Assembly (NCBI RefSeq): GCF_000160115.1
Contig: NZ_GG665867.1
Location: 424,053 to 488,052 of the forward strand
From: Shuttleworthella satelles DSM 14600
GTDB taxonomy: Bacteria; Bacillota; Clostridia; Lachnospirales; Lachnospiraceae
Reading direction: 5' to 3'
DNA: 64,000 bases
Part shown: positions 56,532-62,006 of the stretch, in pieces
Layout of the letters: each line of letters opens with the position of its first letter
Position numbering within the stretch: the stretch's first letter is position 1
Notes under the pieces: model-generated
The model's input: only the letters and a program-made list of their open reading frames with translations
What the model was told of the DNA's origin: nothing
The model's database searches: none
Program-made: the position numbers and the translations under genes

Positions 56532-57548
56532 ATGAAACAGTATGATGTAACAGCCCTGGGTGAATTGCTGATTGATTTCACAGAGAACGGGCTTTCCGAG
56601 CAGGGGAATCCCCTTCTGGAGGCCAACCCCGGAGGGGCTCCCTGCAACGTGCTGGCCATGCTGGCCAAGTATGGGCGCAGGACGGCGTTTATCGGCAAGG
56701 TGGGCGAGGACGCCTTCGGCCGGAAGCTGGCAGGGATTCTCGCGGAGTGCGGGATTGATACCGAGGGGCTCTGCTTTGATCCTCAGGTTCATACCACGCT
56801 GGCTTTTGTGCACAAGTTGGCCGACGGGGACCGGGACTTTTCCTTTTATCGCAATCCGGGGGCGGACATGATGCTGTCAGTCGCGGATGTCAGGAAAGAC
56901 CTGATCCGGCAGAGTCGGATCTTTCACTTCGGGACCCTTTCCATGACAGACCCGGGCTGCAGGCAGGCGACGGAGGCGGCCATTGGGCTGGCGAAAGAGT
57001 CGGAGGCTCTGATTTCCTTTGATCCCAACCTGCGGCCGCCCCTCTGGAGGGACCTGGCAGAGGCTAAGGAAGCCATCTTATATGGAATCAGCCAGTGCCA
57101 TGTTCTGAAAATTTCCGATAATGAAATCGAATTTATCACAGGAATGCAGGACTATGACCGTGCGGCCAGGTCTCTGCAGGATCAGTTTTATACGAAGCTG
57201 ATCTGCGTCACCTTAGGAGAGGAGGGCAGCAGGGCCTATTACGGAGATCAGGTAGTCTGCGCCGATCCCTATCCGGCGGATCAGGTCGTTGACACAACCG
57301 GAGCGGGGGACACCTTTACAGGTTCTATGCTGAACTTTCTTCTGGAGAGGGCAGATCAAAAGAATACTGGAGCGGACGGATTGCAGGAGGAAGGAACAGG
57401 AGTTCTTCTAGAGGATCTTGAGGCTGATGAATTAGAGCGGATGCTTAAGAGAGCCAATGCGGGAGCATCTTTGATTGTCAGGAGAAGAGGGGCTCTGCGC
57501 ATGATGCCGGAGCCGGAGGAAATTACGGCTCTCTGTGGGGAAAAGTAG
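56532..57548 (+). CDS. scrK: PfkB-family fructokinase
   Basis: A 338-residue ribokinase-like sugar kinase, which phosphorylates the fructose released by the two GH32 enzymes. Features are the N-terminal LGELLIDFTENG (8-19), the GG pair in NPGGAPCNVLAMLAKYGR, and the catalytic DTTGAGDTF (254-262, Asp260 the base). An extra hydrophilic insert (about 275-300, DQKNTGADGLQEEGTGVLLE) is longer than usual. ATG lies after AAGAGGAGATTCTGTC. Last gene of the fructan locus. Confidence 0.92.
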   Translation: MKQYDVTALGELLIDFTENGLSEQGNPLLEANPGGAPCNVLAMLAKYGRRTAFIGKVGEDAFGRKLAGILAECGIDTEGLCFDPQVHTTLAFVHKLADGDRDFSFYRNPGADMMLSVADVRKDLIRQSRIFHFGTLSMTDPGCRQATEAAIGLAKESEALISFDPNLRPPLWRDLAEAKEAILYGISQCHVLKISDNEIEFITGMQDYDRAARSLQDQFYTKLICVTLGEEGSRAYYGDQVVCADPYPADQVVDTTGAGDTFTGSMLNFLLERADQKNTGADGLQEEGTGVLLEDLEADELERMLKRANAGASLIVRRRGALRMMPEPEEITALCGEK

Positions 57549-57615
57549 GAATCGGGTGTCCGGTGCCAGCTCTTTTTTATGCTTATGCCTTGGTCGCGTA
57601 AAAACCATAAAGTAG

Positions 57616-57905
57616 GGCAGTCTTTGGTTGACGAACCAGTCAAACCCGGTTCCCTTGTCGCCCGTTCATATAGAAAATATCGCCGCCGCCCTCGAGACTG
57701 TCCGGGCCAAGCTCTGGCAGATAAGTGCTGATTTGCCCGGCTTTTATATTACGGCATCGGTCAGCTTCATCTTACGTAGGATGAGTTCTGGCTGATGCCT
57801 TTCGGTCTGTTTATGGATTTGTGGGAGTGCCACAGACAGTATAACGTCATCTCCAAACCGAAACAGAATTTGACCATTGATGAAATTATCCCCTATGGAA
57901 TCTGA
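57616..57905 (+). pseudogene. Phage tail-module protein remnant (frameshifted)
   Basis: Two overlapping frames join into one protein end: IENIAAALETVRAKLWQISA then FYITASVSFILRRM, and after a one-base shift at about 57783 EFWLMPFGLFMDLWECHRQ and NLTIDEIIPYGI. The last part resembles small proteins coded just before the tape measure protein in clostridial siphophages. No ribosome binding site or start remains. The function is by recollection of phage gene order, not by search. Nothing else is seen in 57549-57615. Confidence 0.5.
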
Positions 57906-57924
57906 AACGTATCGGAGATTTTAA

Positions 57925-58045
57925 CCTCGCACTTAGTCCGTTTCCGGCGAAACTTCTTTGTGAATTTGTCTTGTGACCTTGATGTTTTTCAAAAATCGTG
58001 ATATACCAACATAGAAGTTTGGACGGTTTCGTCATAAGTGCGAGG
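57925..58045. repeat. Inverted repeat upstream of the DUF4143 ATPase gene
   Basis: CCTCGCACTTA (57925-57935) is repeated inverted as TAAGTGCGAGG (58035-58045); inside these, AAACTTCT and AGAAGTTT are also symmetric, so the arms are about 33 nt with a divergent centre. A third, weaker relative (AGAAGTTCGGACG) lies at 59420 beyond the ATPase gene. It could be an insertion boundary or a promoter structure. Confidence 0.55.
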
Positions 58046-58053
58046 TGAAACGC

Positions 58054-59340
58054 ATGGTTAAACGCATGGTTAAACGAGATTCCTATATAAACCGACTGAT
58101 CCACAGTATGTGGAACAGTGAGATAAAAGTCATCACAGGTATACGCAGGTGCGGCAAGTCCGTACTGCTTTTCGATCTGTTTTTCGAGTATCTTCTTTCG
58201 CAGAACGTTTCGGAAGATCATATTTTGAAAATCGAACTGGATCAGCGGCGGTATTATAAGTTCAGAAATCCAATTACTCTGTGCGAATATGTAGAAAGCA
58301 CCGTCCGGGACAGAAAGGATGAAAAATTTTATCTGTTCATTGATGAGGTGCAACTCACCACGAAAGTGGCGGACAAGGAAAATGGCGGCATCGAGGTTAC
58401 CATCTACGATATGCTGAACGAACTCAAGGCATATAAAAACCTTGACGTTTATGTCACAGGCAGCAATTCCAAAGGGTTGTCGAAAGACATTGCCACTGAG
58501 TTCCGCGGGCGCGCTACGCAGATTCATGTGTTCCCGCTGTCATTTGCAGAGTTCTATTCTGCCGTGGGCGGTGACGAGCGAAAAGCACTGGATACCTATA
58601 TGCTTTACGGCGGTATGCCGAGACTTTTAGCACTGGAGGATGACAAGGACAAGAAGGATTATCTGACCTCCCTCTATAGCGAACTGTACGTCAAGGATAT
58701 CGTGGAGCGAAACGGCATCGAGCGCGAGGATGTTCTGAATGACATTCTGGATTTCCTTGCTTCGCAGATCAGTTCGCTGACAAATCCGACCAATATTGCA
58801 AACGCCATTTCGTCCATGAAAAATGAGAAAGTCAATCCTGCAATGGTTTCAAATTATGTGCAGTATATGATCGACTCTTTCCTCGTTTTAATGGCAAAGC
58901 GGTATGATGTCAAGGGAAAGACCTACTTTAAGTATCCGAACAAGTACTACTATACAGATATCGGGCTTCGGAATGCACGGATGAATTACCGCCAGTATGA
59001 TCCCGGTCATATCATGGAAAACATGATTTACAATGAACTTTTGCGGTGCGGATATTCCGTTGATGTCGGTGTGGTTTGTGACCGCACAGGAGACAGTAAG
59101 GTTCAGAAGGAGATCGACTTTGTGGTAAACGACGCGGACAAGAAAATCTATATTCAGTCCGCTTTCCGCATGGATACCGATAAAAAAGAGTCCTCAGAGC
59201 TGTCATCGCTGATGCTTACCAAGGACTTTTTCAAAAAGATCATTGTCCGTATGGATGTGCCACACAATTTTTATGACGACAACGGCATCTTCCACTGTAA
59301 CCTGATCGATCTGCTGCTTGGTCGTGTAGAATTGTTCTGA
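58054..59340 (+). CDS. AAA_14 / DUF4143 ATP-binding protein
   Basis: A 428-residue ATPase of the AAA_14 plus DUF4143 type. Walker A ITGIRRCGKSVL (about 26-37), Walker B FYLFIDEVQ (about 91-99), sensor-like VTGSNS (about 133-138); the C-terminal part has a nuclease-like pattern with KEIDFVV (about 350-356). Members are widespread and mostly without known function. ATG at 58054 is eight bases after GAGG; a GTG nine bases earlier and an ATG at 58066 are alternatives, in a 12-bp duplication. It is lodged between phage-tail remnants, so it was probably acquired by transfer. Confidence 0.88.
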   Translation: MVKRMVKRDSYINRLIHSMWNSEIKVITGIRRCGKSVLLFDLFFEYLLSQNVSEDHILKIELDQRRYYKFRNPITLCEYVESTVRDRKDEKFYLFIDEVQLTTKVADKENGGIEVTIYDMLNELKAYKNLDVYVTGSNSKGLSKDIATEFRGRATQIHVFPLSFAEFYSAVGGDERKALDTYMLYGGMPRLLALEDDKDKKDYLTSLYSELYVKDIVERNGIEREDVLNDILDFLASQISSLTNPTNIANAISSMKNEKVNPAMVSNYVQYMIDSFLVLMAKRYDVKGKTYFKYPNKYYYTDIGLRNARMNYRQYDPGHIMENMIYNELLRCGYSVDVGVVCDRTGDSKVQKEIDFVVNDADKKIYIQSAFRMDTDKKESSELSSLMLTKDFFKKIIVRMDVPHNFYDDNGIFHCNLIDLLLGRVELF

Positions 59341-59361
59341 CAAAATAACTCATATATTTAC

Positions 59362-59392
59362 AAGGAGTGACCTTTCGGGGCCGCTCCTTTTT
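59362..59392 (+). terminator. Terminator after the first DUF4143 gene
   Basis: AAGGAG pairs with CTCCTT around an imperfect inner stem and is followed by TTTTT. Confidence 0.65.
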
Positions 59393-59399
59393 CATATCA

Positions 59400-59550
59400 T
59401 CAGGCACACTCTCTTACCGAGAAGTTCGGACGTTTTTGCACCAAATTCTCGATGAAAGGGCGCTTTTTCATGCCAACTACAAGGAGGTGACGGTGCATGG
59501 TTGACAATTTCGGTCTGAAGATCGGCTTGGGGGCGAGAAGGAATTCAAAA
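59400..59550 (+). pseudogene. Remnant of phage tape measure protein start and preceding small gene
   Basis: ATG at 59497 after AAGGAGGTGACGGTGC reads MVDNFGLKIGL and, after a small deletion at about 59530, GEKEFKK. This matches the common N terminus of clostridial phage tape measure proteins. The preceding frame ends YKEVTVHG, overlapping the ATG as in phage tails. The rest of the tape measure gene is lost. Confidence 0.55.
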
Positions 59551-59651
59551 AACCACGAGGCAATCATCAGCCATTGCTGAAATTTTGAGGATAAATAGGG
59601 AAAGAGTTATCATAAAGTAAGGAATATTTGAATTTGAAGGAGGTAATCATA

Positions 59652-59966
59652 GTGAATGAATTTAACGAATTTATTCGTGAGGTTTTTTCTGCAGCAGGTG
59701 ATATTGTCATAAAATCCATGATGGGCGGATATCTTGTATACCTCAATGGCAGACTGATAGGTGATATTTGTGATAATGAACTGTTTTTAAAGAGAACGCC
59801 GACAACTGATAAACTTCTTGCAGACTCAGAATTGCGTTATCCCTATGAAGGTTCAAAGACATTGATGTATGTATTCGACAGATTTGAGGATACGGATTTG
59901 ATTACAGAACTTCTGGATGGTATGTATGCAGAACTGCCCGAAAAGAAACCCAAGAAAGCTAAATGA
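59652..59966 (+). CDS. TfoX N-terminal domain protein
   Basis: A 104-residue single-domain protein of the TfoX_N/YjhX-like family: VIKSMMGGYLVYLNGRLIGD and NELFLKRTPT match the core. In Haemophilus and Vibrio TfoX activates competence genes, but stand-alone TfoX_N proteins in Firmicutes have no proven role. The chosen start is GTG at 59652, nine bases after AAGGAGG. Its lysine-rich end (PEKKPKKAK) is notable. The region is AT-rich compared with the rest of the window. Confidence 0.8.
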   Translation: MNEFNEFIREVFSAAGDIVIKSMMGGYLVYLNGRLIGDICDNELFLKRTPTTDKLLADSELRYPYEGSKTLMYVFDRFEDTDLITELLDGMYAELPEKKPKKAK

Positions 59967-59969
59967 GAC

Positions 59970-60660
59970 AGGCAATCTGATGAAATCAACGAAAAGAAAG
60001 TAACTCAACTATCCGGATATTCGTATTCTATGTTCAGTGTCCTACTTGCAACCACATATAGGGATTTATTCAGTCAAAAAGACAGGATGAGGTAGTTAAG
60101 GACAATGAGCTTACAAGGGAGCTAATGGGAAAATACATTGACTTTGTTCTATGTGAGGGGAACATCGTTCAGAAAATCATATGGAAATAGACGCATGGGA
60201 GAGAGAAATCACTCTCTTTTAACCTGTTTCAAGTGTTTATACACATCTCCGGGTTTGAACGAAATTATAAAACTCGAAATAAAAAGGTGGAAATCCACCT
60301 GAATTATTCTTGAGAGGTAGCTATATGATAATTAAACGAGATTATTATCTATATTAAAAAGATTGTGATTGTAAGGAAGCACATTATTCCTAAACATGAT
60401 AATGATGGTATTTTATACATTGGAGCAGAGGATTTTTTGCTTAATGAGGCAATCATAGATTTATAAAAATATTTTGTGTCATTCGCTTGACACGAGAGGG
60501 GACTGACTGAAGAATAGCGGTAAAGTTTTTGCTGCCGTTGTAGTGGGGGCTTAAAAAGTACGTCCCTGAAATTGTCAAAGGGATCCGTAAGATTCGGAAA
60601 GGCTGAGGAGATAAAGCGCTCCTGCACAGTTTTTAATATCATGTGAGAATAAATACCTGG
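59970..60660. other. Intergenic, decayed stretch without intact gene
   Basis: Only short frames are present, several with protein-like ends (for example MGKYIDFVLCEGNIVQKIIW near 60126 and NDGILYIGAEDFLLNEAIID near 60402). I cannot name their families. AGGTGG/CCACCT at 60285-60300 gives a minus-strand terminator with Ts. Confidence 0.5.
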
Positions 60661-60773: not shown

Positions 60774-62006
60774 ATGACATACATCAAGAGGGCAATCACA
60801 CCGATCTTAAAGGAGCGGGTCGCAACAAGCAAATGTGCCTTGATCACAGGTGCAAGGCAAGTTGGGAAATCAACGATGATCAGGCATGAGTTTCCCCAGT
60901 ATCAGCAGGCGAGCTTTGACGACCGCCTGACCCGCCTTCAGGCGCGGGAGGAGCCGGGGCTTTTCTTTATGAATCATCCCTGCCCGCTTTTTATTGATGA
61001 AGTACAAAAAGAGAGCTGTATTCTGGAGGACATTAAGCAGAGGGTAGATGCCTCCGAGGAGCGAGGCCTCTTTATTATGAGCGGATCACAGGGACTGGAG
61101 CTCATGAAAGGAATGAGTGAGTCCCTGGCGGGCAGAGTTTCCATTACGGAATTGGCAGGACTCTCTCTGCGTGAAATCCATGGGGTGGGATTTAACAGGC
61201 ATTTTATCCCAACAGATGATTATCTGAAGGAGAGAGAGAAAGAACTCTGTCTTTCCCCGGACCTCTGGGAAATCATCCACAAGGGCGCATATCCGGAGCT
61301 CTATGATATTGACAGGGATTGGCAGGAGTATTATTCCTCCTATGTGTCCACATATCTGGAGAGGGATATCAATGAACTGGTCTCCGGGGATGGAATTACC
61401 TTCACCAAGCTTCTCGTGGCGGTTGCCGCCAGAACAGGGGAGCTCTTGAATTATTCCAATATCGCCGGTGAGATAGGAGTCAGTGAACCGACGGTGCGCA
61501 AGTGGATCTCGGTTCTGGAGCGAACGGGGATCGTCTATCTCTTGCAGCCTTACAGCGCCAGCGCTCTGACACGCACCATCCGTTCCCCTAAGATTTATTT
61601 TCGAGATACAGGCCTGGCCTGCTATTTGACAAGATGGCTGACGGCAGATGCACTGAAGAACTCGGCTGTTGCGGGGAATATGTTTGAGACCTTCGTCGTC
61701 TCGGAAATTCTCAAATCATATAGTAATGAGGGGAAGGACTATCGTTTCAGCGTCTTTTATTATCGTGGTAAAGACAAGAGCAGCAGGCGGGAAAATGAGA
61801 TTGATTTGATCCTGGAGGAAAATGGTGTGCTCTATCCTATCGAAATCAAGATGACAGCAAATCCAAAGGCATCCATGGGGGCGACGAACCCGGTTCTGGA
61901 CAAGATTCCTGACAGAAAGCGGGGAATGGGAGTGATCCTGTGCCTGATTCCTGAGAAGATGTATCTGAGGGAGAATCTGCTTGCGCTTCCGATCGCCTAT
62001 ATCTGA
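60774..62006 (+). CDS. AAA_14 / DUF4143 ATP-binding protein, second type
   Basis: A 410-residue ATPase of the same superfamily as the protein at 58054 but only distantly similar. Walker A ITGARQVGKSTMIRHEFPQY (about 24-43), Walker B LFIDEVQKE (about 78-86), arginine-type SGSQ, a winged-helix-like part (IAGEIGVSEPTVRKWISVLE, about 236-255) and a C-terminal PD-(D/E)XK-like motif (ENEIDLILEENGVLYPIEIK, about 342-361). ATG follows CATAGGAGCTGGT. Function unknown; such genes often move with mobile DNA. Confidence 0.88.
   Translation: MTYIKRAITPILKERVATSKCALITGARQVGKSTMIRHEFPQYQQASFDDRLTRLQAREEPGLFFMNHPCPLFIDEVQKESCILEDIKQRVDASEERGLFIMSGSQGLELMKGMSESLAGRVSITELAGLSLREIHGVGFNRHFIPTDDYLKEREKELCLSPDLWEIIHKGAYPELYDIDRDWQEYYSSYVSTYLERDINELVSGDGITFTKLLVAVAARTGELLNYSNIAGEIGVSEPTVRKWISVLERTGIVYLLQPYSASALTRTIRSPKIYFRDTGLACYLTRWLTADALKNSAVAGNMFETFVVSEILKSYSNEGKDYRFSVFYYRGKDKSSRRENEIDLILEENGVLYPIEIKMTANPKASMGATNPVLDKIPDRKRGMGVILCLIPEKMYLRENLLALPIAYI

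Follow-up and report, generated by a model that had tools for sequence, protein, structure and literature searches.

A DUF4143 ATPase gene between broken phage tail genes of Shuttleworthella satelles is probably a moron that outlived its phage

Introduction

Among the closest described counterparts of the locus studied here are two phage morons and one class of defence candidates. In phage HK97, gp15 is described as acting in exclusion, by blocking the injection of DNA (PMC10883804), and the annotation of the HK97 record places this moron between the tail chaperone genes gp13/14 and the tape measure gene gp16, with a putative terminator behind it. Tab of phage JBD26 is described as a defence moron of the late operon, located between two terminase genes and having its own promoter (PMC10884400). 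The third counterpart is PDC-S01, an ATPase joined to a domain of the PD-(D/E)XK superfamily, ranked as the fourth most common defence across all prokaryotes (PMC12988326) and whose abundance is also reported in PMC13356809. Most defence candidates of this kind are described as still awaiting validation (PMC12988326).

Here, we analysed a window of 64,000 nt from S. satelles DSM 14600 (NZ_GG665867.1, positions 424,053-488,052, + strand; assembly GCF_000160115.1), to which all coordinates without a locus prefix refer. An ATPase gene of the PDC-S01 class was found in the same position as HK97 gp15, followed likewise by a terminator-like hairpin; thus, it occupies a known moron site. The proteins, however, are unrelated: gp15 is a short predicted membrane protein encoded by a 189-bp gene, whereas the window encodes an ATPase of 424 aa with paired repeats of its own. 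Nor do we claim a relation of the ATPase to Tab, a protein of 83 residues without likeness to known domains. What was already known is therefore the moron position and the PDC-S01 class; what appears to be new is the recurrence of PDC-S01 ATPases in moron slots of late operons and the paired repeats around the promoter of many of their genes. Neither promoter repeats nor moron slots are mentioned in the available part of PMC12988326. In open-licence literature, searched by titles and abstract openings, we found no description of promoter repeats of DUF4143/PDC-S01 genes or of a clostridial chaperone/tape measure cargo slot, and PDC-S01 ATPases recurring as morons in late-operon slots were not found in the open-licence literature searched.

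Results

The ATPase gene lies between the remains of two phage tail genes

A first-pass annotation had placed the ATPase gene between phage tail genes, and both flanks were indeed recognised as such. On the left, positions 57731-57905 (+ strand) matched phrog_10988 in a PHROGs search run with an X at the in-frame stop (E 2.3e-22). This remnant contains that one stop, ends at its own stop codon, shows 89% DNA identity to the phage locus L061 and also aligns with L201, a fuller prophage described below. The family is annotated as of 'unknown function' in PHROGs, and a Pfam search of the frame gave nothing above cut-off; we take it to be a tail chaperone from its position behind the phrog_2115 'tail protein' frame of L201, and call it chaperone-type. 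On the right, positions 59481-59552 (+ strand) correspond to the ribosome-binding site and first ~18 codons of a tape measure gene (ATG at 59497), after which the frame is lost; this block is 89% identical to L061, with a 1-base gap, and aligns with L201 as well. Since the two matched blocks are only 4 bp apart in L061, the insert could be delimited as 57906-59480, that is, 1575 bp running from the stop codon of the tail gene to the ribosome-binding site of the tape measure gene. The left end, at 57905/57906, falls at the edge of the interval predicted in the first-pass annotation (57906-58045), whereas the right end, at 59480/59481, lies outside the predicted 59341-59420.

The window retains neither flanking tail gene in intact form. 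The flanks proved to be phage-derived, and a contrary finding would have spoken against an insertion into a phage, although the recognisable phage sequence amounts to only 175 and 72 bp. In the adjacent stretches 57545-57730 and 59553-59640, the phage loci tested gave just chance matches of 14-15 bases. Positions 57691-57768 weakly matched a frame that by eye looked like a head-tail connector (E 0.08-0.2); this match lacked PHROG support and was discarded. The next genes in the window are a fructokinase-like gene identified by eye (56532-57548) and a TfoX_N gene identified by domain search (59628-59966), the latter showing 84-86% DNA identity to pieces of the genomes G170, G005, and G009.

Judged by sequence, the insert carries a self-contained transcription unit, having a promoter and a terminator of its own. 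A putative promoter, TTGATG-17-TATACC (57979-58007, + strand), has similar counterparts in L201 and in the genomes G067 and G002. The ATPase frame is open from 58045 to 59340, and the conserved start is the ATG at 58066, which gives an intact gene at 58066-59340 (+ strand). It is followed at 59364-59392 (+ strand) by a hairpin and T run resembling an intrinsic terminator, paralleled in L201 and in the phage loci L097 and L086; in the window and in these last two, the hairpins that end the insert before the tape measure gene share the pattern GGAGT...CTCC-T. A frame ending in YKEVTVHG (59367-59504) had been noted as overlapping the tape measure start. The tape measure start was correctly recognised, but the frame itself has no PHROG match and differs from L201 by 1- and 2-base indels; it is no gene but the stretch from terminator to tape measure gene.

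A more complete prophage carries the same unit in the same slot

L201, a metagenome-assembled contig of a Eubacteriales bacterium, encodes in the same slot an ATPase 96% identical to that of the window. Apart from small gaps, the alignment of the two loci is continuous: it begins at the end of the left gene, covers promoter, ATPase gene, and terminator, and reaches the tape measure start. Between the two ATPase genes, dS was 0.355 and dN 0.017, a low ratio (dN/dS 0.047). Among 200 genomes of the family, only that of S. satelles DSM 14600 itself gave a whole-length match to the L201 unit.

The prophage in L201 is far more complete than the remnant in the window. Its terminase, tail-protein, and tape measure genes are in open frames; PHROGs recognised the tail protein (phrog_2115) and the tape measure protein, and the large terminase is 83% identical to that of L177. 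Portal-, distal-tail-, polymerase-, primase-, and helicase-like frames were noted by eye from their first residues. We also noticed a flavin-reductase-like gene (L201:11534-12145, by eye) between distal-tail-like and tail-tip-like genes, which is perhaps another moron. As the same ATPase occupies the same slot in a fuller prophage, the insertion preceded the decay of the phage, in the order that the first-pass annotation had proposed. Together, the empty junction of L061 and the filled junction of L201 bear out its view that the ATPase gene was inserted there, and we consider the ATPase gene of the window to be almost certainly a phage moron, or cargo gene.

The ATPase belongs to a class of defence candidates

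Pfam assigned the window ATPase to AAA_14 (E 3e-28) and DUF4143 (E 1.5e-15), while ATPase_2 scored 23.1 bits, under its cut-off of 33.2, and PADLOC assigned it to PDC-S01 (PDLC04787, E 1e-110). Sequence searches returned no relative of solved structure. An AlphaFold2 model (pLDDT 91.1, pTM 0.90) superposed on two archaeal ATPases, with residues 1-307 on 2qen (PABY2304; Z 18.9, rmsd 3.0, 265 aligned) and residues 1-306 on 2fna (SSO1545; Z 18.7, rmsd 3.2, 265 aligned); weaker matches were plant NLRs (Z about 15) and the bacterial Avs5 filament 9nc9 (Z 12.5). The C-terminal tail of the window protein lies beyond the part that matches the archaeal ATPases. Modelled alone (pLDDT 85.8), this C-terminal domain gave moderate matches to McrC (6hz4; E 2.6e-4, TM 0.59), VC1899 (1xmx; E 2.0e-4, TM 0.53), and Bax1, all three of which we take to be PD-(D/E)XK nucleases. 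As modelled, the protein appears to combine a STAND-like ATPase with a winged helix, ending in a PD-(D/E)XK-like domain. D351 is retained. In this clade, however, Q-x-A/S/T takes the place of the (D/E)xK catalytic motif: all of the 26 rows carry Q364, and the lysine two positions on is absent. This makes DNA cleavage by this ATPase clade doubtful.

Two further members of the family were seen in the window. A second intact DUF4143 ATPase gene, of another subfamily, lies at 60774-62006; it also falls into PDC-S01 (PDLC04790, E 7e-95) and, as read from its sequence, keeps an E-I-K in agreement with the E-x-K motif. Positions 60266-60470 are the scar of a third ATPase gene, of the same clade as the first, with the first codons and last ~35 codons retained and the interior missing. 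This scar has one copy of a repeat unit, versus two in its intact relative (L054:318-1592, G170).

Related ATPases recur in late operons of viral contigs

A scan of viral contigs with the single ATPase as query found no relative, whereas a profile scan found 61 ATPase loci, some of which may lie in host DNA contained in IMG/VR contigs. For 40 of these loci, neighbouring genes were read directly, and all 61 were searched with a wider set of queries. In eight loci (L135, L142, L143, L144, L145, L146, L193, and L140), no more than about 550 bp separates the ATPase from a tape measure gene, which it directly follows in L140; had we relied on one tape measure type, only L144 and L145 would have been recovered and the pattern understated. 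A small frame separates ATPase and tape measure gene in L142, L143, and L146, and L144 and L145 look alike. In L143 (2604-3950) and L146, an accessory gene matching phrog_12156 'DNA helicase' comes before the ATPase, on the upstream side of the tape measure gene; two cargo genes can thus share the slot. The ATPase adjoins the large terminase gene in 16 of the 61 loci, with the portal gene on its other side in 14 of these, precedes a small-terminase-like gene in 5, and is found near recombinase-like genes in 6; 27 loci, L140 among them, had none of the queried neighbour types. The large terminase/portal junction (L154, L157, L166, L177, L179, L194, and others) appears as a second moron slot for DUF4143 ATPases, close to the position of Tab in JBD26.

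Junctions like that of the window but with another type of tape measure also hold related ATPases, as in L135 and L142. The L135 ATPase is 79% identical to that of the window, and its tail module is different: the preceding gene belongs to phrog_709 (unknown function) and the tape measure best fits phrog_1272, versus phrog_58 for L201, each of the two also matching the other's family. On a tree of 70 rows, in which L193 sits on a very long branch and is of unsure placement, the tail-slot label required six changes, at least four of them forced by well supported branches. Besides these, 18 phage records contained a relative of the ATPase, every one below 60% identity.

Close relatives are also chromosomal. 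Those in G067 (88%) and G002 (85%) show DNA similarity to the window beginning at the promoter. By eye, no phage genes surround them, within contigs that end on one side at about 1.5 and 0.5 kb, respectively. This indicated that the ATPase family also exists outside phages. The genome of S. satelles itself (G000, 2.17 Mb) has seven matches to the family, one of them truncated, which would suit a selfish or addiction-type gene with no part in defence, one that decay happened to spare or whose loss carries a cost. Such a gene would keep fitting company, since its slot-mates in other phages include PIN/MazE pairs (L251), and its paired repeats resemble autoregulation. Yet no toxin-antitoxin partner was seen beside the ATPase in the window or in L201, and the scar at 60266-60470 demonstrates that genes of this clade can be lost. 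On balance, we regard an addiction-type gene as rather unlikely.

A repeat unit flanks the promoter of many ATPase genes

In the window, two 42-nt arms in inverted orientation and 76% complementary lie on either side of the promoter, the upstream copy at 57920-57961 (- strand) and the downstream copy at 58009-58050 (+ strand), between the -10 element and the start codon. Both are retained in L201. A unit of 30-46 bp is repeated in this way around the promoter of many ATPase genes. To score it, we compared the region from 63 bases ahead of the start codon to 12 beyond it with the sequence farther upstream, taking the best match in direct or inverted orientation and a threshold of 20. As controls we preferred other genes, taken irrespective of whether they had a promoter of their own, to mononucleotide shuffles. 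The threshold was reached by 27 of 49 ATPase genes. Of the controls, 2 of 133 neighbouring genes did so, and 0 of 528 genes from other loci (Fisher p 1.2e-16 for ATPase versus neighbouring genes, relatedness being ignored). When the first set was clustered at 70% identity, 11 of 21 clusters had paired repeats. The held-out set gave a weaker signal, with 11 of 29 genes (11 of 28 once L367, the same gene as that of L023, is dropped) and 4 of 14 in new clusters. Below the threshold were 22 of the 49 genes, including those of G067, G002, L135 (score 16), and the tail-slot locus L144. Among a further 40 genes, mostly of the terminase-associated clade, 38 scored below 20; L186 and L193 alone reached it, and L193 groups with the first clade on the tree.

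The arrangement was examined in the 29 genes scoring at least 18. The copies are direct in 23 and inverted in 6. Centre-to-centre distances are 68-81 bp for 21 of the 23 direct pairs and 94.5 bp for the other two, and 79-96 bp for inverted pairs. A promoter was called between the copies in 24 genes and elsewhere in 3; none was called in 2, one being the window gene, whose promoter falls under the threshold of the script. By eye, many units have a palindromic core that is common to close members and differs among distant ones. Because the upstream copy lies outside the transcript made from the ATPase gene's own promoter, a pair of operators acting at the DNA level is the simplest reading. From this sequence arrangement, we give even chances to the repeats being autoregulatory operators.

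We also considered that the repeats might act in RNA. During lytic growth, a hairpin in the late tail read-through transcript would hide the ATPase ribosome-binding site, while the transcript from the ATPase's own promoter, devoid of the left arm, would be translated. In the window and in L201, the promoter does lie between arms that pair along some 42 nt and span the GAGGTG site. However, the direct copies found in 23 of the 29 genes, mostly 68-81 bp apart, cannot form such a hairpin. An RNA switch therefore seems improbable to us, and operators remain the preferred reading of the repeats.

The chaperone/tape measure junction receives diverse cargo

We collected 239 loci with a chaperone-type frame from IMG/VR and bacterial genomes and left out 12 that had no tape measure gene in the available stretch. 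In the remaining 227, which include some contigs twice, the gap between the chaperone-type and tape measure genes was <60 bp in 177, 60-199 bp in 4, 200-499 bp in 1, and ≥500 bp in 45. The two genes are thus neighbours in most related phages, as the first-pass annotation had stated. Once 11 repeats were removed, the 45 long gaps corresponded to 34 distinct inserts, near-copies still being among them.

DUF4143 ATPases were found in L201, L111, and L102, the last of another subfamily. The other inserts included a PDC-S11 protein (L097; Pfam DUF4268 below cut-off), Fic proteins of PDC-S04 (L235, L242, L253, and L340), a PDC-S02 protein (L266), a TIR-domain protein (L273), PIN/MazE genes (L251, with L239, L258, L263, and L275 similar in appearance), an LRR protein (L118), and further unknowns. 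Beyond the window and L201, PADLOC was run on 17 hand-picked proteins out of the 34 distinct inserts, and 7 of the 17 matched at E 1e-3 or better (L111, L102, L097, L235, L266, and, weakly, L273 at 5e-6 and L251 at 2.5e-5); L340, L242, and L253, chosen for their likeness to L235, matched as well. Collectively, these data suggest that phages of Clostridia repeatedly use the HK97-type moron position as a slot for cargo. That DUF4143 ATPases move as cargo, as the first-pass annotation had supposed, is supported by the empty and filled junctions and by the ATPases at like junctions, and beside terminase genes, of other phages.

In L102 (2675-2842), the last codons of the chaperone-type gene are repeated behind the ATPase, as if insertion had copied the end of the target. 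IS110-like (L274) and reverse-transcriptase-like (L252) elements, both recognised by eye, also occupy the slot. The L102 repeat and the ability of such elements to enter would fit an ATPase that arrived as, or with, a transposable unit using the junction by chance, but we hold this to be very improbable, since the window insert has neither a recombinase gene nor, in our search, bounding terminal repeats, both repeat arms lie left of the ATPase gene and do not bound the insert, and many different genes fill the slot in other phages.

Discussion

The explanation that we favour, and consider probable, is that the ATPase is a moron that outlived its phage and that may be self-regulated and protect the lysogen. 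A temperate clostridial siphophage would have carried the unit of promoter, ATPase gene, and terminator between the chaperone-type tail gene and the tape measure gene. Of the rest of the prophage, some 250 bp of flanking tail-gene sequence would have survived, the ATPase gene itself remaining intact. Within a silent prophage, the unit could be expressed from its own promoter. The ATPase may bind its own paired sites and repress that promoter, possibly by looping. On infection, the ATPase switch would act against the invader, and the lysogen would be protected from other phages, by analogy with the way in which HK97 gp15 or Tab protect, the proteins themselves being unrelated. For the part of this scheme that concerns defence, the support is indirect: the role hinted at in the first-pass annotation is backed by the PADLOC class PDC-S01 and by the other defence candidates in the slot. 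We lean slightly towards a role in defence or superinfection exclusion, which is plausible and makes the ATPase a candidate.

A broader proposal, which is tentative and which we think may well prove wrong, concerns the clade as a whole. Its PDC-S01 members might be self-addressed immune switches, each protein recognising its own palindromic unit, present twice around the promoter at near-fixed spacing. Phages would spread these units via a few slots of the late operon (chaperone/tape measure and terminase/portal), and infection would release the ATPase and trigger defence.

The finding gives PDC-S01 a phage carrier, a prophage for testing, natural empty-site controls, and a specific candidate DNA target. 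Defence by PDC-S01 and its binding to DNA are thereby open to direct test.
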